From Candidatus Flavonifractor merdavium (GTDB lineage Bacteria > Bacillota > Clostridia > Oscillospirales > Oscillospiraceae): a stretch of 36,757 bases of DNA. The position numbers were made by a program, and so were the translations under genes. How positions within the stretch are numbered: the first letter of the stretch is position 1; each line of letters opens with the position of its first letter. This document shows positions 13,908 to 36,757 of this stretch, in pieces. The stretch covers positions 1 to 36,757 of the forward strand of contig DWXF01000063.1 of the NCBI GenBank assembly GCA_019119335.1, in the 5' to 3' direction. The notes beneath the pieces were generated by a model, which searched no databases, was not told the origin of the DNA, and saw only the letters and a list, made by a program, of their open reading frames with translations.

Positions 13908-15215
13908 TCAGAGCGCGTCCAGCACGGCATTCAGGACAAAGACGGCGGCCAGGAAATAAAGGGCCGGAGCCACCAGATGGGTCCGTTTCCGGCACACCAT
14001 TACCACCACATAGGACACTACCCCCAGCATGACTCCGGTGGTGATGGAACAGGTAAAGGGCATCCCCACGATCATCAGAAAGCTGGGCAGGGAAATCTCC
14101 ACATGCTTCCAGGTGATCTGGGTGATGCCGCTCATCATGGACATCCCCACCATGACCAGCGGGGCCGCCAGGGCGGCGCCGGTCACCATCCCCGCCAGCG
14201 GCGCAAAGGGCAGCATACACAGAAAGAGCAGACCGGTTACCACGGCGGAAAGTCCGGTACGGGCGCCCTCCCGGATACCGGTGGCGGATTCCGCCATAGC
14301 GGTCACGTTACTCAGCCCCAACAGCGCGCCGGCACAGGTAGCGGCTCCGCAGCAGAGCATGGCCTCCCGCTGTCCGGCCAGATCACCGATGGCGTCGGTC
14401 AGCTTGGCGTCTCCCGCCACGCCCAGCAGGGTGCCCAGAGCGTCAAAATACTGGGAAGTGACCAGAGAGAGCAGCGCGGAAACCAGAGGTATGGGCCCCA
14501 ACGTGAAAAGGACGGTGAAATCCGGCTGCAGCGCGGTCAGGGACAGCTCCGGAACCGCTGTCAGCGTTTGCGGCAGAACGGTCACCCCCAGAGGTATCCC
14601 CAGCACCACCGTCACCGCCATGCCCAATATAAGGGCCCCGGGGACTTTTTTAATCAGCAGCACCGCCGTAACAAAGATGCCCAGCAGCGCCAGCAGAGGT
14701 TCCGGCGCAGCCAGCGCGCCCATGTCCACCAGGTTGTTGTCGGCGGTGATCAGCCCCGCGTTGATCAGCCCCGAGAGGGTGAGGAAGAGACCCACCCCGG
14801 CGGACAGGGCAAACTTGAAGGGCATGGGCAGGGCGTCGTTCAGCCGTTCCCGCAGGGGGCTGAGGGCGAGAACCAGAAACACAACGCCGGAAAGCAGCAC
14901 CAGAGCCAGGGCCTGCTGCCAGGTGCAGCCGTACCGCTGGCAGAGGGTATGGGTAAACAGGGTGGTAAAGCCCAGGCCGGGGGCCAGGGCGAAGGGCAGA
15001 TTGGACGCCAGGCCGGACGCGATGCTGCCCACGGCGGCGATCAGACAGGTGGCCGTCATGACCGCTTGAACGTCCATGCCCGCCCCGGAGAGCAGGCCCG
15101 GAATGGCCAGGATCAGGTACGCCATGGAACAGAAGGTGGTGCATCCGCCCCAAAACTCTCCGGCCAGGGTGGCGCCCCGCTGGGAGAGGCGGAAGAATTG
15201 CTCCAGTCGTTTCAT
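13908..15215 (-). CDS. NCS2-family purine permease (AzgA-like)
   Basis: Proton-coupled import of adenine, guanine or hypoxanthine. 435 residues, about 12-14 membrane spans, with the AzgA-type opening LSQRGATLAGEFWGGCTTF, ALAPGLGFTTLFTHTL in the core and SNVTAMAESATGIREGARTG (the NVTxxxES-type motif of the substrate site). The ATG lies eight bases after AGGAGG; an in-frame GTG three codons earlier overlaps that site. It is the last gene of the minus-strand unit, four bases downstream of a broken copy of the same family, and ends at a terminator. Exact substrate is not readable. Confidence 0.88.
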   Translation of the reverse strand: MKRLEQFFRLSQRGATLAGEFWGGCTTFCSMAYLILAIPGLLSGAGMDVQAVMTATCLIAAVGSIASGLASNLPFALAPGLGFTTLFTHTLCQRYGCTWQQALALVLLSGVVFLVLALSPLRERLNDALPMPFKFALSAGVGLFLTLSGLINAGLITADNNLVDMGALAAPEPLLALLGIFVTAVLLIKKVPGALILGMAVTVVLGIPLGVTVLPQTLTAVPELSLTALQPDFTVLFTLGPIPLVSALLSLVTSQYFDALGTLLGVAGDAKLTDAIGDLAGQREAMLCCGAATCAGALLGLSNVTAMAESATGIREGARTGLSAVVTGLLFLCMLPFAPLAGMVTGAALAAPLVMVGMSMMSGITQITWKHVEISLPSFLMIVGMPFTCSITTGVMLGVVSYVVVMVCRKRTHLVAPALYFLAAVFVLNAVLDAL

Positions 15216-15227
15216 CTCTTCCACCTC

Positions 15228-16531
15228 CTAGATGGCCGAAAGGACGTACATAGCGATAAACAGGATGGTCAGTATGTAGGTGACCGGAGGAATCTTCTTC
15301 CCCTTCCCGCTGACCAGGCTGATGGCGGTATAGGAGATGAAGCCCACGCCGATGCCGTCGGCCACCGAATAGGTAAAGGGTATCATGATCATGGTGAGAA
15401 AGCAGGGCAGGGCGATTTCCACCTGATGCCAATAGATGTTGGTGGCGTTGTGGATCATCAGCATGCCGATGAGCACCAGAGCGGGCGAGGTGGCCGCCCC
15501 CGGGATGATCCCCGCAATGGGAGCCAGCAGGATGGCGGCCAGGAACAGCACCCCGGTGGCGGCGGTATACAGCCCGGTCCGGGCCCCGTCCGCCACGCCG
15601 GTGGAGCCCTCCACCGGTATGCCGATGGGCGGCGCGCCCAGCAGCGGAGCGGCGGCGGTGGACAGGGCCACCGCCGTCATGCCCCGGCTGTACCGGCCCA
15701 GCCCGCCCTTTTCATCCAGCAGGTTCCCCGCCCCGGCAATACAGATCAGGGCCCCCAGGGTATCGAAGCACAGGCATATGGTAAAGGTGACCACGGCGGT
15801 GACCAGGGGCAGTACCCCCAGAGACAGCACCCCGCCGAAATCCGGGGACAGCAGCAGCGGGCGCAGGGCAGACAGGGAGAGTGTCATGGATTCCGGCGCC
15901 TGAGTCACCCCCAGGGGGAAGCCCAGAAGGGTGGTAACCACAATGCCGATGAGCATAGCGCCCTTCACCTTCCAGGCCATGAGCACGCCGGTGATCAACA
16001 GGCTCAGGATGGCCAGAAAGGTGGCCGGGGCGCCGCCCCCAGCAGCAGCGCGCCGTCCTGGGCCTGGACGATGCCGGAATTCAACAGCCCGATGAGGGCG
16101 ATAAACAATCCCAGTCCGGCGCTGATGGCGTTTTTCATGCTGGGCGGAATGCAGGAGATCATCTGCTCCCGCAGCGGGGTCAGGCTGATGAGCAGAAAGG
16201 CCAGCCCGGACAGGCTCACCACCCCCAGAGCCTGGGCCCAGGTGTAGCCCATGGTGAGACAGAGGGTATAGGTAAAAAAGGCGTTGAGGCCCACCCCCGG
16301 CGCCAGCATAAAGGGCAGGTCAAGGGCGGCGGAGAGAAAACAGGCCAGGGCGGAGGAAAGGCAGGTGGCCAGCAGCACACCGGTATAATCCATACCGGTC
16401 TGAGAGAGATAGCTGGGGGTGACAAACAGGATGTACGCCACCGAGAAAAAGGAGGTCAGCGCCCCCAGCAGCTCCCGGCGTACGGTGGTTCCCCGCTCCG
16501 TCAGGTGAAACGCCCGCTCCAGTATCCTCAT
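15228..16531 (-). pseudogene. NCS2-family purine permease, frameshifted
   Basis: Two frames together make a complete AzgA-like permease. The first part (16531 down to about 16036) begins MRILERAFHLTERGTTVRRE, contains MLAPGVGLNAFFTYTL, and then runs into a stop. The second part (from about 16036 down to 15228) continues ATFLAILSLLITGVL and carries PIGIPVEGSTGVADGARTG. One base appears to be missing in the run of five C at 16036-16040 (plus strand). It may be true loss, phase-variable slippage, or a sequencing slip in a homopolymer. The start overlaps the HD gene stop (ATGA). The intact sister at 13908 may cover its role. Confidence 0.85.
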
Positions 16532-26947: not shown

Positions 26948-27583
26948 TCATTTCCCGGGAAAATCCGCTATCACGGCTCTCAGATCGGACAGGAACCGGC
27001 AGACATGGAACCCATCGCAGACGGCGTGATGGACCTGTATGGAAAGGGGCAGCTCGTACCGCTCCCCTATCCTTGTATACTTCCCCATGGTGAAAATGGG
27101 GAGCAGATAGTGGTATCCCTTCTGCAAATTGAGATTGAAGCCGTCAAAGCTTTCCCACGGCACCATGGAGACCGGGAAGGTGTTGGCCGGGGTGTCCGGC
27201 TTGGCCTGCATGGCCTTGACGCCGCCGTAGCGCTCCAGATCCTGCCGGTACCTCTGGCAGAATTCGGCGTAATCCTCCGCATATTCCGTCCAGAGGTTGG
27301 AGAAGGTTTCCGTATCCTTATGGAACACGGTATAGCAGGGATGGAGCCGCTTGTAATAGCCCAGCCGCCCGTCGGCGTCAAGCTCCATCCGGAATTCCGC
27401 GTGCATATGGACCGTTTTGGAGATGCAGTGGAGCATGGCGGGATAGAGGCTATGCCCTGCCTGCAGGATAGGCGTAATGTCCAGCCTGGTGGTCATGCTG
27501 TAAGTACAGGGAACTTGAGAAAGATAGTGATGATAGTGTTCCTGTCTGGCCCAATCGGCCAGGTCAACGTATTCAAATTCCAA
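26948..27583 (-). CDS. chloramphenicol acetyltransferase-family protein
   Basis: 211 residues, the length of type-A CAT. It opens MEFEYVDLADWARQEHYHHY, as CAT does, and carries the catalytic HHAVCDGFH (about 188-196, HHxxxDG) and PWESFDGFNLN (about 143-153), the latter corresponding to the Ser148 region of CAT. It may acetylate chloramphenicol or another hydroxyl compound; many chromosomal CAT-like proteins of gut Firmicutes have no proven drug activity. Start is TTG eight bases after AAGGGAG; there is no in-frame ATG nearby. No mobile-element signs surround it. Confidence 0.87.
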   Translation of the reverse strand: MEFEYVDLADWARQEHYHHYLSQVPCTYSMTTRLDITPILQAGHSLYPAMLHCISKTVHMHAEFRMELDADGRLGYYKRLHPCYTVFHKDTETFSNLWTEYAEDYAEFCQRYRQDLERYGGVKAMQAKPDTPANTFPVSMVPWESFDGFNLNLQKGYHYLLPIFTMGKYTRIGERYELPLSIQVHHAVCDGFHVCRFLSDLRAVIADFPGK

Positions 27584-28533: not shown

Positions 28534-28582
28534 AAGAAACGGACTTCCCGCCTCTGGCAAAAGACGGAAAGTCCGTTTCTTT
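28534..28582 (-). terminator. terminator of the beta-keto acid operon
   Basis: AAAGAAACGGACTT and AAGTCCGTTTCTTT (28569-28582) form a 14-base stem with a 21-base inner loop; on the minus strand TTTTT follows. The first arm overlaps the thiolase stop codon. Confidence 0.75.
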
Positions 28583-29750
28583 ACACGTTTCCGCAGAACT
28601 CAAAGATCCCCGCGGCGCCCTGGCCGCCGCCAATACACATGGTGACCATGAAATAACGCCCGCCGCAGCGGCGCATATGCGAGATGGCTTTGCACAGCAA
28701 CATGGCTCCCGAAGCGCCCAGAGGATGCCCCAACGCCATCGCTCCTCCCTCCGGATTGAGTTTATCCTCCGGGATCCCCAGCGTCCGCACACAGGCCAGC
28801 GCCTGAGACGCGAAGGCCTCGTTCAGCTCAATATCATCCATGTCGCTCAGCTGCAATCCGGCCAGCTTCAGCGCCTTGGGAATGGCCTTGATGGGGCCGA
28901 TTCCCATAATCCTGGCAGGTACTCCATCCACGGCAAAGCCTACAAACTTTGCCAGCGGCGTTACCCCCAGCGCCTGGAGTTTTTCCTCCGACACAAGTAC
29001 CACGAACCCCGCGCCGTCGGTCATCTGAGAAGAGGTGCCTGCCGTAACCACTCCGTCTTCCTTAAAACACGGCTTCAGCTGGGCCAGGCTCTCCATGGAG
29101 GTTCCGGGGCGAATCCCCTCGTCGGCCGTCAGCACCACCGGATTGCCTTGCCCATCCAGCCCGTCCACGGGGATGATCTGATCCTCAAACCACCCCGCCG
29201 CCTGGGCCTGCGCCGCTTTTCTGTGGCTTTCGCAGGCCATGCGCTCCATATCTTCCCGCGAAATATGATACTCCGCCGCCACATGCTCCGCCGTCATACC
29301 CATACTGATATAGTTGTCCGGCGCGTGTTTGAGCAGATAGGGTTCCACGATATTGGGGTCTGTGGCCATCGGAACCATGGACATGCTCTCCACGCCGCCC
29401 GCCACAATGACCTCCGCCTGTCCGCAGGCGATGGTGTTGGCGGCAGTGGCCACGGTCTGAAGGCCGGAGGAGCAGAAACGGTTTATGGTCATGGCCGGAA
29501 CCCGATCCGGCAGGCCGGCCCGCTGCGCCACCAGCCGGGCAATGTTATAGTCCTGCACACCCTTGGGCATGGCGCAGCCTACCACCACATCGTCAATATC
29601 CTCCGGCTTCAGCTGAGGGATGCGCTGGAGCACACCCGCCAGAGTCTGACCGCCGAACTGAACAGGATGAATCTTGGACAGCCCGCCCTTAAACGCCTTG
29701 CAGTAAGGACTGCGCCCATACGCTACCAGATAAACAGGTCTGACATTCAT
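28581..29750 (-). CDS. acetyl-CoA acetyltransferase (thiolase)
   Basis: Splits acetoacetyl-CoA with CoA into two acetyl-CoA, or runs in reverse. 389 residues, the normal thiolase length, with nucleophile Cys93 in [20 protein letters not shown] (catalytic His) and the second active-site Cys in [13 protein letters not shown] follows AAGGAG; the frame is open for 48 codons upstream into the neighbour. It is the last gene of the sigma-54 operon. With a CoA-transferase making acetoacetyl-CoA upstream, thiolysis to acetyl-CoA is the obvious role. A longer-chain 3-ketoacyl substrate is not excluded. Confidence 0.9.
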
Positions 29751-29781
29751 ATCATCGTCTCCTTCCGGATTGATAGCTGGC

Positions 29782-30525
29782 TCAGGAAAAAAACATTCCT
29801 CCGTTGACGGAAAGCGTCTGTCCGTTGATAAACGACGCGTCCTCCGAGGCGAGAAACAGAATAGCCCGGGCAATCTCCTGGGGTTCCGCTCCACGTCTCA
29901 TGGGGATCTTTTTGAGCATGGCCTCCACCACCGTTTCCGGGATGGCTTTGGTCATTTCTGAATAGGTAAACCCAGGCGCCACCGCGTTGATCCGAATTCC
30001 CTTGGCGGCATATTCCAGGCACAAAGTCCTGGTCAGAGCCTCCACCCCCGCCTTGGACGAGGCGTAATTGCTCTGCCCCACATTGCCCATCTGTCCGGAA
30101 ACCGAAGCAAGGTTTACGATGGCCCCTTTCCCCTTTTTCAGCATGTGCCCCAGAGCCGCCTGGGTGGTAAACAGCATGGACTTGAGATTGACATCCATCA
30201 CGCTATCCCACTGTTCCTCGGTGAGTTTGTGAAACAGCGCGTCCCGGGTGATTCCGGCGTTGTTGACCAGGATATCCACCTCGCCAAAAACGGATGCGAT
30301 TTTATGGAACAGCGCCTCCACATCCTTCCGCACCGCTACATCGCACCGCACCGCCAGTATGTCGGAATACCCCTGAGCCAACAGCGTTTCACCCGCGGCG
30401 GCACAGTCGTCGCTGCGGTCGGCCAGCACTACCCTGGCGCCTTCCGCGGCAAACAGCTGCGCCGTGGCAAACCCAATCCCCCGGGCGGCTCCGGTGATTA
30501 CAACCACCTGATGGGAAAATCTCAT
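29782..30525 (-). CDS. SDR-family 3-oxoacyl reductase (FabG/PhaB-like)
   Basis: NAD(P)H-dependent reductase of 247 residues: nucleotide loop TGAARGIG (11-18), NNAGI, and the Ser-Tyr-Lys triad in NLASVSGQMG and SNYASSKAG; VNGGMFFS is the usual FabG-like end. In this setting it may reduce acetoacetyl-CoA to 3-hydroxybutyryl-CoA (as PhaB does), linking the pathway to butyrate, or it may oxidise the incoming hydroxy acid. Start at ATG 30525 is favoured by AGGAAGG; ATG three codons upstream is possible. It lies 31 bases before the thiolase gene and behind a hairpin. Confidence 0.87.
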   Translation of the reverse strand: MRFSHQVVVITGAARGIGFATAQLFAAEGARVVLADRSDDCAAAGETLLAQGYSDILAVRCDVAVRKDVEALFHKIASVFGEVDILVNNAGITRDALFHKLTEEQWDSVMDVNLKSMLFTTQAALGHMLKKGKGAIVNLASVSGQMGNVGQSNYASSKAGVEALTRTLCLEYAAKGIRINAVAPGFTYSEMTKAIPETVVEAMLKKIPMRRGAEPQEIARAILFLASEDASFINGQTLSVNGGMFFS

Positions 30526-30577
30526 AGCAACCATCCTTCCTGAAGTGGGATTTTCCGGTCATATTCCCGCTTGTGCA

Positions 30578-30618
30578 GACCGTGGACCGCCTGCAAACGC
30601 CGCAGGCGGTCCACGGTC
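30578..30618. other. 17-base perfect hairpin inside the operon
   Basis: GACCGTGGACCGCCTGC (30578-30594) pairs perfectly with 30602-30618 across a 7-base loop, six bases after the cleavage-enzyme stop codon. No T run follows on the minus strand, so it is more likely an mRNA-protecting or processing hairpin than a terminator. Confidence 0.7.
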
Positions 30619-30624
30619 CAACGG

Positions 30625-31482
30625 TTACCGCACCAAAGGCTTGATGCCCAGGATTTCCCTGGCTTCCGCGGGGGTGGCGGGTTCCTTGCCAAAGGTGCGC
30701 ACGGCCTCGACCGCCCGGGCGACCAGCATCTGATTGGTTGCCATGATCTTTTCGCCGTTTTTGTCATAGCCGTAAACCACATTGTCCTCCAGGCCTACGC
30801 GGATATGGCCGCCCAGAGCCAGCGTGGCGTACAGAATGGGCAGATGAGCGGGGCCCACGCCAAAGGCGGACCAGGTGGAGCCGGCGGGAATGTGGTTTTT
30901 CAGATAGAGCAGATTCTCCACCGTGGCAGGCATACCGCCCAGCACGCCCAGCACAAACTGATAATGACAGGGGGTGGGGAGCTTGCCCTTTTTCACATAG
31001 TACTCGGTAATGCCCAGCATGCCCGCGTCAAAAATTTCAATTTCCGGCTTGATGCCCCGCTCGATGTACACTTCGCCCAACTTCTCCAGGAACTGGGGAC
31101 TGTTCATAAACACCAGGTTGGGCATCCAGTTGAAGGTACCGGCGTCATAGGAGCCCATCTCGATCTCATCAATGGTACGCATATGGGCCATGCGCTCCTC
31201 GTCGGTGGGACTGACCGCGCCGGAGGAGGTGCAGTTGATCACCACGTCACAGTCCTTATGAGCGCGGAGCAGATCCACCGTCTTGCGGAAACGGGCGGCG
31301 TCCATCGTGCCGATTCCCTTTTCGTCCCGCATATGGAGATGGACAACAGCTGCCCCCAGTTTCCAGCATTCATAGGCCGCCTCGGCAATCTGCTCGGGCG
31401 TTTCCGGAATATTGTAGCCGGAGGGCGTAATCGCACCGGTGAGGGCGGCGGTAATGATGACTTTTTGATTCAGATTACTCAT
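30625..31482 (-). CDS. beta-keto acid cleavage enzyme (BKACE, Kce family)
   Basis: Zinc enzymes of this family (formerly DUF849) take a beta-keto acid plus acetyl-CoA and give acetoacetate plus a new acyl-CoA; the founding member acts on 3-keto-5-aminohexanoate in lysine fermentation. 285 residues with the metal ligands in AAVVHLHMRDEKG (His48, His50), the family segment INCTSSGAVSPTDEERM, ATVENLLYLKNHIPAGSTWS and GGHIRVGLEDNV. ATG follows AAGGGAG. No other lysine-fermentation genes (kamA, kamDE, kdd, kal) are nearby, so the substrate is probably a different keto acid. Substrate choice depends on pocket residues I cannot model. Confidence 0.9.
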   Translation of the reverse strand: MSNLNQKVIITAALTGAITPSGYNIPETPEQIAEAAYECWKLGAAVVHLHMRDEKGIGTMDAARFRKTVDLLRAHKDCDVVINCTSSGAVSPTDEERMAHMRTIDEIEMGSYDAGTFNWMPNLVFMNSPQFLEKLGEVYIERGIKPEIEIFDAGMLGITEYYVKKGKLPTPCHYQFVLGVLGGMPATVENLLYLKNHIPAGSTWSAFGVGPAHLPILYATLALGGHIRVGLEDNVVYGYDKNGEKIMATNQMLVARAVEAVRTFGKEPATPAEAREILGIKPLVR

Positions 31483-31504
31483 ACTAATTTCTCCCTTCAC
31501 ATAG

Positions 31505-32803
31505 TCACAGAATTCCATATTGACGGGCTTCCCTTTCCAGGGTCTCCCTGTGATCTGGGTGAGCAATGGCAATCAGGCTCCGCGCACGCTGGGGAATGGT
31601 TCTGCCCCGCATCTGGGCAATTCCGTATTCTGTAATGATATAATCCACGGTATTACGGGAAAGCGTTACGATGGTACCGGGCGCCAGAGCGGCGGAAATA
31701 GTGGAAATCGTGCCCTTTGCAGTGGTGGAACGAAGGGCAATGATGGAGCGGCCGTTTCTGGCGTGGATCGCGCCGGCGGCGGTATCGCTCTGGCCCCCGC
31801 TGCCGCTATATTGTCTGCTCCCTACCGATTCAGAGGCCACCTGACCGGTCAAATCCACCGCCAGAGCGGTGTTGATCGACACCATGTTCTCATTCCGCGC
31901 CACCACGGAGGGACAAGTGACGTAAGACGCGTCAAACAGAAGCACGCCGGGATTTTGGTCCACAAACCGGTAAAGGCTTTCGTCACCCAAAATAAACGAA
32001 CCTACAATTTTGCCCGGAAACAGGCTTTTCTTCCGGCCTGTGACAATGCCCTCCCGGACCAGGTCCGCCATGGAGCTGGTGATCATTTCCGTGTGGATAC
32101 CCAAATCCTTTTTTCCGCTGAAGCTTTGGGCCACCGCGTCCGGAATACCGCCAATCCCCAGCTGGATGGTGTCGCCGTCATGTACCAGAGAGGCCACATA
32201 TGTGCCAATGGCCGCCTCCGCCGCTCCCGTCCGGGCCCGTGGAAGCACTGGCGGCGGGGTGGAGCCGTTCAGCAGGTAATCCACCTGGGAGATATGCAGC
32301 GCTGTGTCCCCGAACACCACCGGAAGATTGGGATTGACTTCCAGGATAATAATGTCCGCCTGCTCCAGAAAGGTCTGCTCCACAATGCGCGCCAGCGGCA
32401 GGCGAAAGTAGCCGTGCCGGTCCATGGGCGTGGCGGCGCAACAGAAAATGCGCACCGGATTTTCCTCCACCCAGCGCCGGGGCAGATTGTGCAGATCGCC
32501 CGGAAAATAGCTGCACAGGCCGGACTCCTGTCCGCTTCTGGTAGAGGCGCTGTGAAACGGCGAGACCACATCCACCACGCCCCGGAAGGCCGGGTCATTG
32601 AGGTATTCATACCGCCCCAGGGTCAGGCCGGAAAACACCGTGACATTTCTGACCCGCCCCTTTAAACCAGCCAGCGCGGCGGCAAAGCCAAAGGGCTCGT
32701 TGCCACAAAAGCCCAGGGCCACCTGGTCTCCGTCACGGATCAGCGCCAGCGCGGCATCCATGGAGATGGTTTTTTGGCGGCAAAGCGTTTCCAGTTCCAT
32801 CAT
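31505..32803 (-). CDS. acetyl-CoA hydrolase/transferase-family CoA-transferase
   Basis: Moves CoA between acyl-CoA and a carboxylic acid through a glutamyl thioester. 432 residues, as in 4-hydroxybutyrate and butyryl-CoA:acetate CoA-transferases. DTIQLGIGGIPDAVAQS and DLGIHTEMITSSMADLV contain the expected catalytic Glu (HTEM), and GGQSDTAAGAIHARNGRSI the second conserved block. The start overlaps the previous stop (ATGA). In this operon it could pass CoA from the acyl-CoA made by the cleavage enzyme to acetoacetate, feeding the thiolase without spending ATP. That pairing is inference. Confidence 0.88.
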   Translation of the reverse strand: MMELETLCRQKTISMDAALALIRDGDQVALGFCGNEPFGFAAALAGLKGRVRNVTVFSGLTLGRYEYLNDPAFRGVVDVVSPFHSASTRSGQESGLCSYFPGDLHNLPRRWVEENPVRIFCCAATPMDRHGYFRLPLARIVEQTFLEQADIIILEVNPNLPVVFGDTALHISQVDYLLNGSTPPPVLPRARTGAAEAAIGTYVASLVHDGDTIQLGIGGIPDAVAQSFSGKKDLGIHTEMITSSMADLVREGIVTGRKKSLFPGKIVGSFILGDESLYRFVDQNPGVLLFDASYVTCPSVVARNENMVSINTALAVDLTGQVASESVGSRQYSGSGGQSDTAAGAIHARNGRSIIALRSTTAKGTISTISAALAPGTIVTLSRNTVDYIITEYGIAQMRGRTIPQRARSLIAIAHPDHRETLEREARQYGIL

Positions 32804-33837
32804 GACAGTTCCTTTAAAAATTCAAAGAAACGGATATTCCCATGCTCCAGCGGGAGCGTTCCGTTTTCGATTTTCTTGACCACGTCCACCACCATATCGT
32901 TGACCGGAGTGGGGACGCCCACCTTCCGGCCCAGCTGGCAGGCGGCGCCATTGATGAAGTCGATTTCGCACCGGCGGCCGTTACGCAGGTCCTGGAGCAT
33001 ACTGGCCAGCAGCGCCCGGTGGGGACCCCACAGCTTGCGGCAGATCTCCTTGGTCCGCTCCATTCCCGCGGCATCGGAAAATTGGAAGGCGTCGGTAAAA
33101 TCCACCTGTACGCCGGCCCCATGGAAGGGCTCCATCTGAATCCCCGCCGCCGCGGTGGCCTGAATGCACTCCCGGCCAATATAGGCCACGGCGGTCAGGC
33201 CCAGCGGATCGTCCATAACAGCTCCGAAGGTATCGCCGATGACTGTGGACATGCCGCTGAAGGTGGCATTCATCAGCACCTTGCACCATCTCAGACCCAT
33301 GAGGTTTGTGGAGATGGTGATGGGGCACATGTACTCCAGAATCTGCTTGACCTCTTCCAGCTCGGGTGTAAGCGCGCCTGTCACCGTGCCCAGCGTGGAG
33401 GAGCAGGTTGCAATAGGGGAGGTAAGCTGCGACACGCCGGGACCGATAAAGGTGGCGCCCCACCCCACCGGGCTGCCCATGACCCGCTCGGCTCCGAAGG
33501 CATCCACAAGCGCGGTTTCCGGCAGGCCGTTCTGGCAGGTACAGAAAATGGTCTCCGGCGTGGCATGCTTCTGCATCTGCGGAATGCAGACGTCATTGTA
33601 GGTCTGCTTGGCCATATAGATGAACAGATCATAGGTGCCTTCCATTTCATCCGGGGTAAGGGCATGGACCGGCACGGTCAGCTCAGCGCCGCCGATCACC
33701 TTCGCTCCATTGGCATTGAGCGCGTCCACATGGGCCTTGTTGGCGTCGATCAGATCCACCTGACGGTTCTGGGCAATAAAGGCCCCCAAAATCGTGCCCA
33801 GAGAGCCGGCACCCATAATAGCAATACGATTCAGCAT
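32800..33837 (-). CDS. ketopantoate reductase-family (ApbA/PanE) dehydrogenase
   Basis: 345 residues: N-terminal Rossmann domain with GAGSLG (9-14), the family NGL segment in CQNGLPETALVDAFG, and the C-terminal helical domain with LMGLRWCKVLMNATFSG (the conserved Lys and Asn) and HGAGVQVDFTDAFQF. Members reduce 2-dehydropantoate or, in catabolic clusters, oxidise other hydroxy acids. It is placed between the permease and the CoA-transferase/cleavage genes and overlaps the former by ATGA; no pantothenate genes are near. I infer oxidation of the imported hydroxy acid to the keto acid cleaved by the BKACE enzyme. ATG follows AAAGGAG. Confidence 0.87.
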   Translation of the reverse strand: MLNRIAIMGAGSLGTILGAFIAQNRQVDLIDANKAHVDALNANGAKVIGGAELTVPVHALTPDEMEGTYDLFIYMAKQTYNDVCIPQMQKHATPETIFCTCQNGLPETALVDAFGAERVMGSPVGWGATFIGPGVSQLTSPIATCSSTLGTVTGALTPELEEVKQILEYMCPITISTNLMGLRWCKVLMNATFSGMSTVIGDTFGAVMDDPLGLTAVAYIGRECIQATAAAGIQMEPFHGAGVQVDFTDAFQFSDAAGMERTKEICRKLWGPHRALLASMLQDLRNGRRCEIDFINGAACQLGRKVGVPTPVNDMVVDVVKKIENGTLPLEHGNIRFFEFLKELS

Positions 33838-33869
33838 AAAAAAGCTCCTTTCCCTTTTGTTTCAGTCAA

Positions 33870-35189
33870 TCAGATGCCCAACAGGATACAAGCGCCGGCA
33901 GCTACCAGAACGGTAATGGCCGGAATGGCTACCGAGGTCCAAAATACATGTTTGTAGCCCTCCTTGTGGCTCAGCCCCAGATAGGACAGAACCAGGAACA
34001 GGCCGGCGGCATGGGGCAGCGTGTCCAGGCTGCCGGCGGCAACCGAGATCAGGCGGTGGAGCACTTCCAAATCGCAGCCGGAGGCGATGAAGTTCTCGCC
34101 CAAAATCTGCAGCGTCAGCCGCAGTCCGCCGGAGGAGGAGCCCGTAATACCGGAGATGACGGCGGTAGAAAAAATACCCTCCAGATAGGGGTGCATTTTG
34201 ATGCTCAGCACCCAATCAACCACCACCTGGAACGCGGCGGAATTCTGCACCACGGTGCCAAAAGAAACCACCGCCGCCAGACCGCCGATGGCGGAAATAC
34301 CGTCGTTCAGTCCCACACCCAGCAGCTGCTTGATGCTTTTGCCCTTCAGGCGGTCCAGATTGAAAAGCACCACCAAAATCGTGCCGGACAGCATGGCGGC
34401 CACGGTAAGCAGCGCGGAATCGGAAATGAAGCGTCCGCCGATGATGATAAACAGGATGAGCACAATCATGGGCAGGAAAGACTTCCAGGCGGCGGGGAGC
34501 GTGCTGCGGTCGGCGATCTCGTAGGCGCCCGTATTCATGTGGGCGGGATAGGTCCAGCCCTCGCCGGCGGCAATCGCCTTTTTCTCCTGAAGCCGGGCAT
34601 AGACCATGCACATGACAAACATCGCAATGGAACAGAGGATGCCCAGGACGGGAGCGGCCGTCATTTTGGTGCCCAGAAACTGGGTAGGGATAATATTGGT
34701 CAGCGCGGGAGTTCCGGGGAGGGAGGTCATCGTATAGGTGGAGGAACCGATGACCAGACAGGCCACCGTCAGATGGCGGGGCAGATTAGCTTCCTTAAAC
34801 AGCAGGAACATAATGGGACCAACCACAAAAATGCAGACAAACAGGCTCACGCCGCCGTAAGTCAGCACGGACGTAATCAGCACTGAAACCAATATGACGT
34901 TCTTCTTCCCAAACCAGTCGATCAGCTTGTAGCCGACGGCGGTGGCACAGCCAAAGGAATCCATAAATTTTGCATAAAGCGCAGAGAAAATGAAAATCAG
35001 GAGATAACTGCTGTAAGTGCCCGCATATCCGCCCATATAGTAGCTCGCGTAAGATTCCCACACAGGCATACCGTTGGACAGAATTACCACAAGCGCCGCC
35101 AGCAGGGATAGCGGCAGGGCCGCCAGGCCTTTGCAGGCGCCAATGATCATGATGGCAATTGCCGCCAGCAAACCAATAATACCGATCAT
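33870..35189 (-). CDS. GntP-family organic acid permease
   Basis: Proton or sodium symporter for gluconate-like or short hydroxy/keto acids. 439 residues, about 12-14 spans; MIGIIGLLAAIAIMIIGACK, VLTYGGVSLFVCIFVVGPI, TSLPGTPALTNIIPT and ITGSSSGGLRLTLQILG are typical GntP segments, and DTLPHAAGLFLVLSYLGLSH the conserved C-terminal block. First gene of the operon, ATG after GAGGAGG, downstream of a sigma-54 promoter. GntP members occur with 3-hydroxybutyrate and other hydroxy-acid pathways, so it marks the imported substrate as a small hydroxy or keto acid. Confidence 0.88.
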   Translation of the reverse strand: MIGIIGLLAAIAIMIIGACKGLAALPLSLLAALVVILSNGMPVWESYASYYMGGYAGTYSSYLLIFIFSALYAKFMDSFGCATAVGYKLIDWFGKKNVILVSVLITSVLTYGGVSLFVCIFVVGPIMFLLFKEANLPRHLTVACLVIGSSTYTMTSLPGTPALTNIIPTQFLGTKMTAAPVLGILCSIAMFVMCMVYARLQEKKAIAAGEGWTYPAHMNTGAYEIADRSTLPAAWKSFLPMIVLILFIIIGGRFISDSALLTVAAMLSGTILVVLFNLDRLKGKSIKQLLGVGLNDGISAIGGLAAVVSFGTVVQNSAAFQVVVDWVLSIKMHPYLEGIFSTAVISGITGSSSGGLRLTLQILGENFIASGCDLEVLHRLISVAAGSLDTLPHAAGLFLVLSYLGLSHKEGYKHVFWTSVAIPAITVLVAAGACILLGI

Positions 35190-35248
35190 AATTCTCCTCC
35201 TCTGTCAATCTGCCGTGTTGTTGGTTTGGCCAAACCTGCCCCAATAAA

Positions 35249-35266
35249 TTGCAAGATCCACGCCAA
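35249..35266 (-). promoter_or_regulatory. sigma-54 (-24/-12) promoter of the operon
   Basis: Minus strand reads TTGGCGTGGATCTTGCAA: TTGGC for the -24 box, then TTGC at the required spacing for the -12 box, against the consensus YTGGCACGRNNNTTGCW. It differs only at the A and C after GGC. It lies 60 bases before the permease start and just past a gene for a sigma-54 activator. Confidence 0.8.
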
Positions 35267-35343
35267 CTACTGCGTTTCCGGCGGAGTATAGCCGTCAGCC
35301 CTTGGAACTCCAGCAAAAAAAGAGACGGGAAAAATTTTTGCCT

Positions 35344-35379
35344 CTTCCATACCAATTCGTTTCTGAATCGGTATGGAAG
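35344..35379. promoter_or_regulatory. inverted repeat: activator site or terminator
   Basis: CTTCCATACCAATTC (35344-35358) and GAATCGGTATGGAAG (35365-35379), one mismatch, 6-base loop, about 97 bases upstream of the -24 box. It may be an enhancer site for the sigma-54 activator. On the minus strand it is followed by GGCAAAAATTTTT, so a terminator for the activator gene is also possible. Confidence 0.55.
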
Positions 35380-35412
35380 GGGCAATTCATGGCCATATCT
35401 GAAAATAGATTC

Positions 35413-35429
35413 ACAACTGAATCAGTTGT
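35413..35429. promoter_or_regulatory. perfect 17-base palindrome, likely enhancer site
   Basis: ACAACTGA-A-TCAGTTGT, five bases past the activator stop codon and about 157 bases upstream of the -24 box. It has no T run, so it is better explained as an upstream activator sequence than as a terminator. Confidence 0.55.
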
Positions 35430-35433
35430 CAGC

Positions 35434-36757
35434 TTAATAGTCAATATGATATTTTGACTTTCGCCGCACCACAGAAGGCTGACTGATCTTCAAAATTTCC
35501 GCGGCCTTATAGGTGCTCTTATATTTTTTTAAAATCTTTTCCAAAATGCTTTTTTCACACTGTTCCAGATAGGATTGAAGGGAAAACGATTCCTCCTCCA
35601 TGTCTGGAATCAGCTCGTTTGGCTGGATCAGAATGGGTAAGTCGGCGCTGCCGGAGGGTTCCATGGAAAAGGTGCTGCCAAACTGTCCAAAAAAGGAGGA
35701 CGGAAGTTCTCTGATTTCCATAACCGTCCGGCTGCTGGTCACCACAATCCGCTCCACACAGTTGCGCAGCTCCCTTACGTTGCCCGGCCAATCATAGCTC
35801 AGCATTTGCTCAAAAACCCGGTCGGAAAGCACCTTCACCCGGTCATATTTTTGGCAGTACTGCTTCAAAAAATGCAGACAGAGGGGGATGATGTCGGCCT
35901 TGCGGCTGCGCAGCGCCGGAACCTCCAGCGGAATCACATTCAGGCGGTAGTAGAGATCGGCGCGAAAGCGCTGCTCCCCGATCTGCTGCTGCAAATCTGT
36001 ATTGGTGGCTGTGATCAGCCGGAAGTCCACATAAATATCCCGATTGGAACCAACTCTGCGCATCTTGCCCGTTTCAATCACCCGCAGCAGCTTGCCCTGG
36101 AGATTGAGCGGCAGGGAATTGATTTCATCCAAAAAGAGCGTGCCGCCATGGGCTTCCTCAAAAATACCCCGTTTCCCGGAATCCAGCGCCCCGGTAAAGG
36201 CCCCTTTCTCATAGCCGAACAGCTCCGCCTCCAGCAGATGCTCCGGCAGAGCGGCACAGTTGATCTCCACCAGCTCTCGCCCACGGCGGGGGCTGCAGCG
36301 GTGGATATACGAGGCCAGCGCGTTTTTACCCACGCCCGACTCCCCCGTAATCAGGATGCTGGAGTCCACCTCCGAGACCTCTTTGGCCGTATCCAGCAGG
36401 GCTTTCATCTCCGGACTGTGGGCGATCATACGTACGGCATAGTCCTGCTGGCGGTTCTGGTTCAGGAATACCTGACCCTGAATATCGTTGATCACAGCGT
36501 CCTGATACCGGCGATTAAAATGATCAATGCTCTGCACCACCCCAATAATGAAAAGAATATTCCCTCTGTCGTCAAAAGTAGGAATGGCGGACACAATCTG
36601 GTTGTAGCCGGGAATTCCGTTCCCAGGCACAACCTTCTGCAAAACAGTGTGCTTTTGCTTGGTCTGAAGCACATAATCGGAAACACAGTGGTCTGTATAG
36701 CCCTCCTCCACGAGCTGATATACATCGCGGGCGGCATACCATTCCCTGGAGTAGCCC
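35434..36757 (-). CDS. sigma-54-dependent transcriptional activator (5' end outside window)
   Basis: The reading frame is open to the window edge, so the N-terminus is missing; an internal GTG at 36711 is not the true start. The visible 440 residues hold a PAS-like sensor end (PTFDDRGNILFIIGVVQSID), an AAA+ domain with Walker A GESGVGKN, the sigma-54 contact loop GYEKGAFTGAL, Walker B GGTLFLDEI and arginine-finger region FRADLYYRLNVIPLEVP, then a Fis/TyrR-like helix-turn-helix, TYKAAEILKISQPSVVRRK. It is followed by a sigma-54 promoter and a catabolic operon on the same strand, so it almost surely activates that operon in response to its substrate. Confidence 0.93.
   Translation of the reverse strand, partial: GYSREWYAARDVYQLVEEGYTDHCVSDYVLQTKQKHTVLQKVVPGNGIPGYNQIVSAIPTFDDRGNILFIIGVVQSIDHFNRRYQDAVINDIQGQVFLNQNRQQDYAVRMIAHSPEMKALLDTAKEVSEVDSSILITGESGVGKNALASYIHRCSPRRGRELVEINCAALPEHLLEAELFGYEKGAFTGALDSGKRGIFEEAHGGTLFLDEINSLPLNLQGKLLRVIETGKMRRVGSNRDIYVDFRLITATNTDLQQQIGEQRFRADLYYRLNVIPLEVPALRSRKADIIPLCLHFLKQYCQKYDRVKVLSDRVFEQMLSYDWPGNVRELRNCVERIVVTSSRTVMEIRELPSSFFGQFGSTFSMEPSGSADLPILIQPNELIPDMEEESFSLQSYLEQCEKSILEKILKKYKSTYKAAEILKISQPSVVRRKSKYHIDY

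Follow-up and report, generated by a model that had tools for sequence, protein, structure and literature searches.

The 36,757-nucleotide stretch of Candidatus Flavonifractor merdavium analysed here (contig DWXF01000063.1, positions 1 to 36,757; hereafter the window) carries on its minus strand, at 28581-36757, a block of seven co-directional genes for a sigma-54-dependent activator, a GntP-like permease, a PanE-type dehydrogenase, a CoA-transferase, a beta-keto acid cleavage enzyme (BKACE), a short-chain dehydrogenase/reductase (SDR) and a thiolase. We consider that they probably form a substrate-induced catabolic operon, which would degrade a beta-hydroxy acid, small and carboxylic, in a CoA-independent way, with acetoacetate as intermediate and acetyl-CoA as product. 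The sequence evidence for this reading consists of the gene content, the operon layout, a sigma-54-type site together with an rpoN gene, selection on the reading frames, conserved catalytic residues and the recurrence of PanE beside BKACE.

In the proposed route the permease would import the beta-hydroxy acid and the PanE-like enzyme would oxidise its 3-hydroxyl with NAD+ to a beta-keto acid. The BKACE would move the acetyl end onto acetyl-CoA, yielding acetoacetate and an acyl-CoA two carbons shorter, and since the cleavage uses acetyl-CoA the acid would be activated without ATP cost. The CoA-transferase would pass CoA from the shortened acyl-CoA, or from another donor, to acetoacetate, and the thiolase would then cleave the resulting acetoacetyl-CoA, or the SDR would reduce it toward 3-hydroxybutyryl-CoA and butyrate. 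Such a closed scheme of import, oxidation, cleavage, CoA transfer and thiolysis or reduction had been put forward in the original prediction, and it agrees with the gene content, the likely sigma-54 control and the residues described below. We infer each of the reactions, the direction of the pathway, the use of NAD+ and the beta position of the hydroxyl from these genes.

Operon layout, selection and probable sigma-54 control

The predicted order of six genes behind an activator is borne out, as all genes are open and co-directional, with the 5' end of the activator gene cut at the window edge. Distances between the six downstream genes are, from 5' to 3', 32, -4, 22, 90 and 31 bases, and a purine-rich stretch precedes each of their starts. 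The activator (35434-36757; Pfam Sigma54_activat 6.2e-67, HTH_50 1.8e-07) has an AAA+ domain, a GAFTGA loop seen in the translation and a C-terminal helix-turn-helix. The 439-residue permease (33870-35189) gave no relevant Pfam or NCBIfam match in profile scans and does not reach the PF02447 (GntP) cut-off. It aligns at 28.9% identity and 208 bits with a Priestia permease annotated GntP, which itself passes PF02447 (25.4 against 22.5 bits); the name GntP permease given earlier is hence upheld by relationship and not by a family match of its own. The products of the next five genes all match Pfam families. They are the PanE-type dehydrogenase (32800-33837, 345 residues; ApbA and ApbA_C), the CoA-transferase (31505-32803, 432 residues), the BKACE (30625-31482; 4.2e-90), the SDR (29782-30534), which resembles FabG and acetoacetyl-CoA reductases in profile and PDB matches, and the thiolase (28581-29750, 389 residues; TIGR01930, 437.2 bits against a cut-off of 240.55). 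The CoA-transferase is of the 4-hydroxybutyrate/butyryl-CoA type: the PDB entries that match it best carry the annotation 4-hydroxybutyrate CoA-transferase (3eh7, 9.3e-99) and it falls below the equivalog TIGR03948 for butyryl-CoA:acetate CoA-transferase (258.2 against 674.8 bits). A role of the SDR as phloroglucinol reductase was considered and dropped, its best PDB matches being FabG-type and its identity to the SDR of the Acetoanaerobium cluster described below being 31%. Directly after the thiolase, at the end of the operon, lies a terminator-like hairpin on the minus strand (28536-28579, 20 pairs counted, followed by TTTTT), whose stem is the longest among the 18 terminator-like sites found (shuffle mean 9.1).

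The closest named record, Flavonifractor sp. An306 (locus L001), has all seven genes in identical order, with a DNA identity of 95.8%. Summed over the seven genes, the two copies differ by 262 synonymous and 30 replacement codons (36:0 for the BKACE, 47:2 for PanE), with the thiolase compared over 1161 of 1170 bases and the activator over its in-window part. Because of this ratio the operon is, on codon comparison, kept as protein-coding. The An306 activator is called at 479 residues and has a PAS-like N-terminus by eye. An inverted repeat with arms of 16 (one mismatch allowed; no strand assigned) lies 3' of the activator gene at 35338-35385 and may be the terminator of that gene or an activator-binding site; An306 has a repeat of like kind with altered letters.

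A -24/-12 promoter-like site, TTGGCGTGGATCTTGCA (35250-35266, minus strand), is placed 60 bp upstream of the permease start, within the 244-base gap between activator and permease, and retains GG-N10-GC. On our own score for sigma-54 sites no other of the 73,482 window positions equals it. Against this, the site has two mismatches to the plain sigma-54 pattern, and the window is not enriched in sites with at most two mismatches (12 observed, 23 expected from shuffles); their rate corresponds to about 0.08 expected in the gap on one strand. Since the plain pattern is not enriched, the weight of the site lies in its placement and in the retained GG and GC. An rpoN gene is present in the genome, as a single match to the sigma-54 DNA-binding domain. 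Of the sigma-54 control predicted earlier, the activator with its AAA+ domain, the -24/-12-like site and rpoN are present; control by sigma-54 is thereby supported but not proven.

Nine further gaps between a related activator and its neighbouring operon, besides those of the window and An306, were scanned with the same score. Seven of them contain an operon-facing site scoring at least 13.9, the activator being divergent from the operon in four (L107, L057, L058, L111) and co-directional in three (L047, L051, L108). In L045 a good site points toward a 3-hydroxyacyl-CoA dehydrogenase (3HCDH) gene instead, and the scan found no forward-direction site in the L044 gap.

The BKACE, its nearest relatives and the substrate

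The window BKACE scores 302.3 bits against PF05853 (cut-off 24.8) and conserves, in the numbering of 2y7d, His46, His48, Glu230, Asp231, Glu143 and Arg226, which we take to be the Zn ligands and catalytic residues. Its position 14 is Ile. In the available text of PMC10470551, Glu14 binds the 5-amino group in the lysine-type enzyme, and Trp is the letter of triacetate lyase at this position. Because of Ile14 the window enzyme is, by this position, of neither the lysine nor the phloroglucinol type. In a tree of 51 BKACEs it belongs to a 28-row group (support 100/98) with Ile, Val or Met at position 14, and also to a 24-row set (100/99). Position 145, Tyr in CcaKce and ascribed as Tyr145 to all BKACEs in the accessible part of PMC12871164, is Phe in the window enzyme. 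It is likewise Phe in 44 of the 48 distinct rows, lysine-linked ones included, with Met in one and Tyr in three; hence Phe145 is not diagnostic and was dropped as a mark of odd chemistry.

Ten BKACEs with genomic context are 71-78% identical to that of the window (L047, L048, L050, L051, L052, L053, L055, L056, L002 and L140). All ten share its pocket letters MGSYDAG at 104-110 and have Val at position 14 in place of Ile. A crotonase-family gene resembling beta-diketone hydrolase lies close by on the same strand in every one of these loci, and 3HCDH (by alignment) and thiolase genes occur within 8 kb on the same strand in nine; the tenth, L140, is a 5.0 kb contig broken off just within a 3HCDH-like gene (by eye), and no thiolase is seen on it. 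The best PDB matches of the L047 crotonase are beta-diketone hydrolase (2j5g, 1.2e-30) and 6-oxocamphor hydrolase (1o8u, 2.9e-27), enoyl-CoA hydratases following well behind. A one-piece CoA-transferase like that of the window is found in L002 (31% identity) and L140 (34%). PanE was seen within 5 kb in none of the ten loci. Over 30 BKACE loci, PanE lies within 5 kb in nine and a diketone-hydrolase-like gene (at least 90 bits) within 8 kb in twelve, and the two never occur together. Set beside its nearest clusters, the window operon seems to share their cleavage end and to have a different front end.

The clusters themselves, seen in ten loci of Oscillospiraceae relatives, combine one or two beta-diketone-hydrolase-like crotonases with a Val14 BKACE, 3HCDH and thiolase, and look like an undescribed ring- or diketone-cleaving pathway. 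Among the first nine such loci, eight encode an apparent two-subunit CoA-transferase together with a carrier of the OFA type (both by eye), and a phosphotriesterase-cluster gene, scanned in one case, is present in four. A DUF362 protein (PF04015, scanned in L056) with a partner of about 105 residues that has no Pfam match stands at L056:1912-3484 and L002:4104-5659; by clustering the pair is also present in L045 and L052, and it occurs beside both Val14- and Trp14-type BKACE clusters. A beta-diketone hydrolase was also sought elsewhere in the window genome and set aside: the best candidate, 31% identical, is on contig C58, away from the operon. There (L136:7460-10612) an FAH-family-like gene stands between two crotonase-family genes that resemble beta-diketone hydrolase at 31% and 25%, and an apparent carrier gene and a GntR-type regulator adjoin them (FAH-like gene, carrier and regulator by eye).

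As substrate we tentatively favour a 3-hydroxy-5-oxo acid, such as would arise from opening of a cyclic 1,3-diketone, a guess with an appreciable though minor chance of being right. It is suggested by the near-identical pocket of the ten nearest BKACEs, their beta-diketone-hydrolase-like neighbours and the 3HCDH in nine of them, and by the opening of the dihydrophloroglucinol ring to 3-hydroxy-5-oxohexanoate described in the part of PMC10470551 at hand. A 2-deoxy-aldonate such as deoxyribonate is a distinctly less likely candidate, kept in view of the GntP carriers, the Priestia LacI regulator and the deoxyribonate pathway as far as it is given in PMC6365646.

PanE-type dehydrogenases beside BKACE

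The PanE residues, numbered after E. coli PanE, were compared over 11 BKACE-linked and 13 unlinked rows of the subfamily. Lys72, Asn98, Lys176, Asn180, Ser244, Asp248 and Glu256 are retained in all 11 linked rows; among them Asn98, Lys176, Asn180, Ser244 and Glu256 are taken to be the catalytic set of the E. coli enzyme. Arg31, presumably the NADPH-binding residue, is lost and an Asp stands at the end of beta-2; Asn184, which we take to belong to the ketopantoate pocket, is replaced by Ser, and Asn194 by Phe; and 17-22 extra residues precede position 244. Ser184 and the longer stretch are present in 13/13 unlinked members as well. Since unlinked members carry them too, these changes, the beta-2 Asp among them, mark the PanE subfamily and not the link to BKACE. 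The window enzyme would be NAD-dependent, as the beta-2 Asp suggests, and would act on a beta-hydroxy acid.

Apart from An306, PanE adjoins BKACE in eight loci from Clostridia, Bacilli and Alphaproteobacteria, four of them in one genome. In L107 (genome G206) the pair stands with a TctA-type carrier. L108, L109, L057 and L058, the last two found through the BKACE search, are all in genome G032, and L116 is in G411 (same order). The Priestia locus (L127) reads LacI regulator, BKACE, PanE and GntP permease, and the Paracoccus locus (L128) reads sodium:solute symporter (SSS), PanE and BKACE, the last two overlapping. Of the 28 PanE-subfamily genes (at least 200 bits) in the loci fetched, 11, in nine loci, have a BKACE no more than 3 kb away, which in every case is on the same strand. 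Together with that of the window, nine PanE-linked BKACEs are in the tree, several of them as long branches. That they form a single clade is rejected (p-AU 1e-11, a test chosen with the tree already in view), and over the 25 labelled rows PanE linkage requires four changes or more. Because these BKACEs do not form one clade, PanE would have joined BKACEs more than once, or BKACEs would have been swapped. The earlier statement that no described pathway pairs PanE, BKACE and GntP must be split: the pairing is no singularity, as it recurs in eight loci, one of them with GntP, while no description of it was found in the literature, where a paper saying only "BKACE" plus PanE could escape the search wording. 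Genome G032 (L057, L058, L108, L109, L110, L111) has 11 BKACE matches and at least nine PanE-subfamily genes, including three tandem PanE genes beside one BKACE and one lone PanE that follows a sigma-54 activator of its own and has a -24/-12-like site. A class-wide search of 391 genomes (own included) gave a PanE relative at E <= 1e-60 in one other genome, 42% identical, with no BKACE seen on the surrounding 4.0 kb.

Several observations count against the reading as a beta-hydroxy acid operon. To our knowledge, PanE enzymes of known function act on 2-keto or 2-hydroxy acids, and a 3-hydroxy acid is proposed as the substrate here solely from the BKACE neighbour. The beta-2 Asp, found in 8/13 unlinked rows (Asn in four, Val in one), is not a mark of a BKACE partner, and 17 of the 28 PanE-subfamily genes lack a BKACE within 3 kb, some of these loci having short flanks. 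The complete gene order, among the neighbourhoods fetched, occurs in the window and An306 only and is thus restricted to one species group. Furthermore, the PanE-linked BKACEs may act on different substrates, because their position 14 varies (I, V, G, Q), and the PanE-BKACE loci L109 and L116 do carry a crotonase-family gene, one not close to the diketone-hydrolase type (below 90 bits).

A broader version of the catabolic reading is that PanE and BKACE form a portable, undescribed module that degrades beta-hydroxy acids in a CoA-independent way across Clostridia, Bacilli and Alphaproteobacteria. Members of the PanE family would have turned into NAD-dependent beta-hydroxy acid dehydrogenases, and in this gut bacterium the module would take up 3-hydroxy-5-oxo acids from dearomatised polyphenol rings, opened by beta-diketone hydrolase in related genomes, and convert them to acetyl-CoA and butyrate. 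We regard this version as speculative and rather unlikely to hold in full. If the pairing is functional, catabolism would become a new role of the PanE family, which would correct the automatic label "pantothenate biosynthetic process" on the Priestia PanE record, and gut Flavonifractor would gain an acetate- and butyrate-forming route, possibly linked to polyphenol fragments. Given that few physiological substrates are settled for the large BKACE family, the recurring pairing is a handle on new ones.

Alternative readings and known systems

The genome, 82% complete, contains four BKACEs. Those on contigs C3 and C49 have Trp14 and are of the phloroglucinol type, and the one on C13 has Glu14. 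It is improbable, in our view, that the window BKACE belongs to a phloroglucinol branch as a triacetate acetoacetate-lyase for 3,5-dioxohexanoate itself. Several of its pocket letters do resemble the Trp14 group, and the downstream logic of dehydrogenase, BKACE, CoA-transferase and thiolase is alike in the available portion of PMC10470551. Yet Ile stands in place of Trp14, no cyclase was matched in the operon by Pfam, the operon SDR is FabG-like, and the genome already has two Trp14 BKACEs as well as counterparts of the Acetoanaerobium cluster (cupin, SDR, 3HCDH, cyclase and Trp14 BKACE): a cyclase (63% identical), SDR (38%) and cupin (54%) on C6, and a 3HCDH (55%) following the BKACE on C3. 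These phloroglucinol-type genes are seemingly split over contigs, with cyclase, SDR and cupin on C6 (L137:7096-9316) and Trp14 BKACE and 3HCDH on C3 (L044). The second Trp14 BKACE, on C49 (L045), lies about 9 kb from another cyclase-family gene.

Just as improbable is a reverse route, in which BKACE and PanE would build a beta-hydroxy acid for export as an electron sink. GntP-type carriers could export, and the BKACE CsTAL ran in reverse in vitro according to the consulted section of PMC10470551. The dedicated sigma-54 activator suggests substrate induction, however, the Asp at the end of beta-2 would favour NAD+, and the terminal thiolase can drain acetoacetyl-CoA.

PanE could instead make pantoate for vitamin B5 and CoA, or handle another 2-hydroxy acid, its position being due to chance or to CoA supply. 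Its family annotation is 2-dehydropantoate 2-reductase, and it passes TIGR00745 just above the cut-off (145.6 against 141.35 bits). Against this stand the loss of Arg31, the change of Asn184 to Ser and the repeated adjacency to BKACE. Moreover, panB (PF02548) was not found in the 82% complete genome, where 11/14 control genes were detected, and the window PanE had no match in the five same-genus genomes searched. We therefore judge a pantothenate role very unlikely. Least credible of all is that the BKACE is the 3-keto-5-aminohexanoate cleavage enzyme and the operon part of lysine fermentation: although Lys_ferment_KCE (NF052387) is its best-scoring NCBIfam model, at 267.7 bits it remains below the cut-off of 382, the Glu14 that binds the amino group in the available text of PMC10470551 is Ile, and the lysine genes of the genome, lysine 5,6-aminomutase alpha and beta and 3,5-diaminohexanoate dehydrogenase (all above NCBIfam cut-offs), adjoin the separate Glu14 BKACE on C13. 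The absence of lysine-fermentation partner genes asserted earlier hence applies to the operon and not to the genome, while lysine-type residues in the window BKACE, which would have spoken against the prediction, were not found.

Elsewhere in the window, two adjoining open reading frames in different frames (15228-16531) resemble halves of one nucleobase-type permease, possibly through a frame break (by eye), next to a second, open copy at 13908-15224. A 211-residue open reading frame at 26948-27583 resembles a chloramphenicol-acetyltransferase-family protein (by eye) and has a close copy in An306 (L001:12905-13540).

Among known systems, the proposed scheme bears a close likeness to the anaerobic phloroglucinol cluster published for Clostridium scatologenes. 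As set out in the accessible part of PMC10470551, an NAD(P)-dependent dehydrogenase there yields a beta-keto acid, which is processed by BKACE with acetyl-CoA, CoA-transferase and thiolase to acetyl-CoA and butyrate. Unlike in the window, that dehydrogenase is of the 3-hydroxyacyl-CoA dehydrogenase type and the BKACE has Trp14, and the ring is opened by a reductase and a cyclase, both absent from the window operon. The route by which Pseudomonas simiae and Burkholderia relatives oxidise deoxyribonate, to the extent covered by the available text of PMC6365646, likewise comprises oxidation of a hydroxy acid at C3, BKACE, acetoacetate activation and thiolase. Its dehydrogenase is an SDR, however, and it includes a glycerate kinase, to which P. 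simiae adds a lactonase; the comparison is one of genes and steps. Lysine fermentation also places a dedicated dehydrogenase before a BKACE (diaminohexanoate dehydrogenase and KCE), with a Glu14 enzyme and an amino substrate, and is in this genome the separate C13 cluster. In the CORE cycle design with BKACE15, as presented in the part of PMC11961710 at hand, BKACE, CoA transfer from acyl-CoA to acetoacetate and thiolase form a closed sequence, which is synthetic and uses malonate semialdehyde as substrate.

The Priestia megaterium pNCT2_6 and Paracoccus denitrificans plasmid 1 loci share with the window a PanE gene adjoining BKACE and a carrier (GntP and sodium:solute symporter, respectively). 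They differ in having a LacI- or AraC-type regulator nearby and no CoA-transferase, SDR or thiolase annotated alongside, and no functional description of these pairs was found in the literature searched. Their BKACEs are only 45% and 33% identical to that of the window, and position 14 is, by eye, Gln in the former and Ile in the latter. While the chemistry is known family by family, what is new is the recurrence of PanE with BKACE in distant bacteria.

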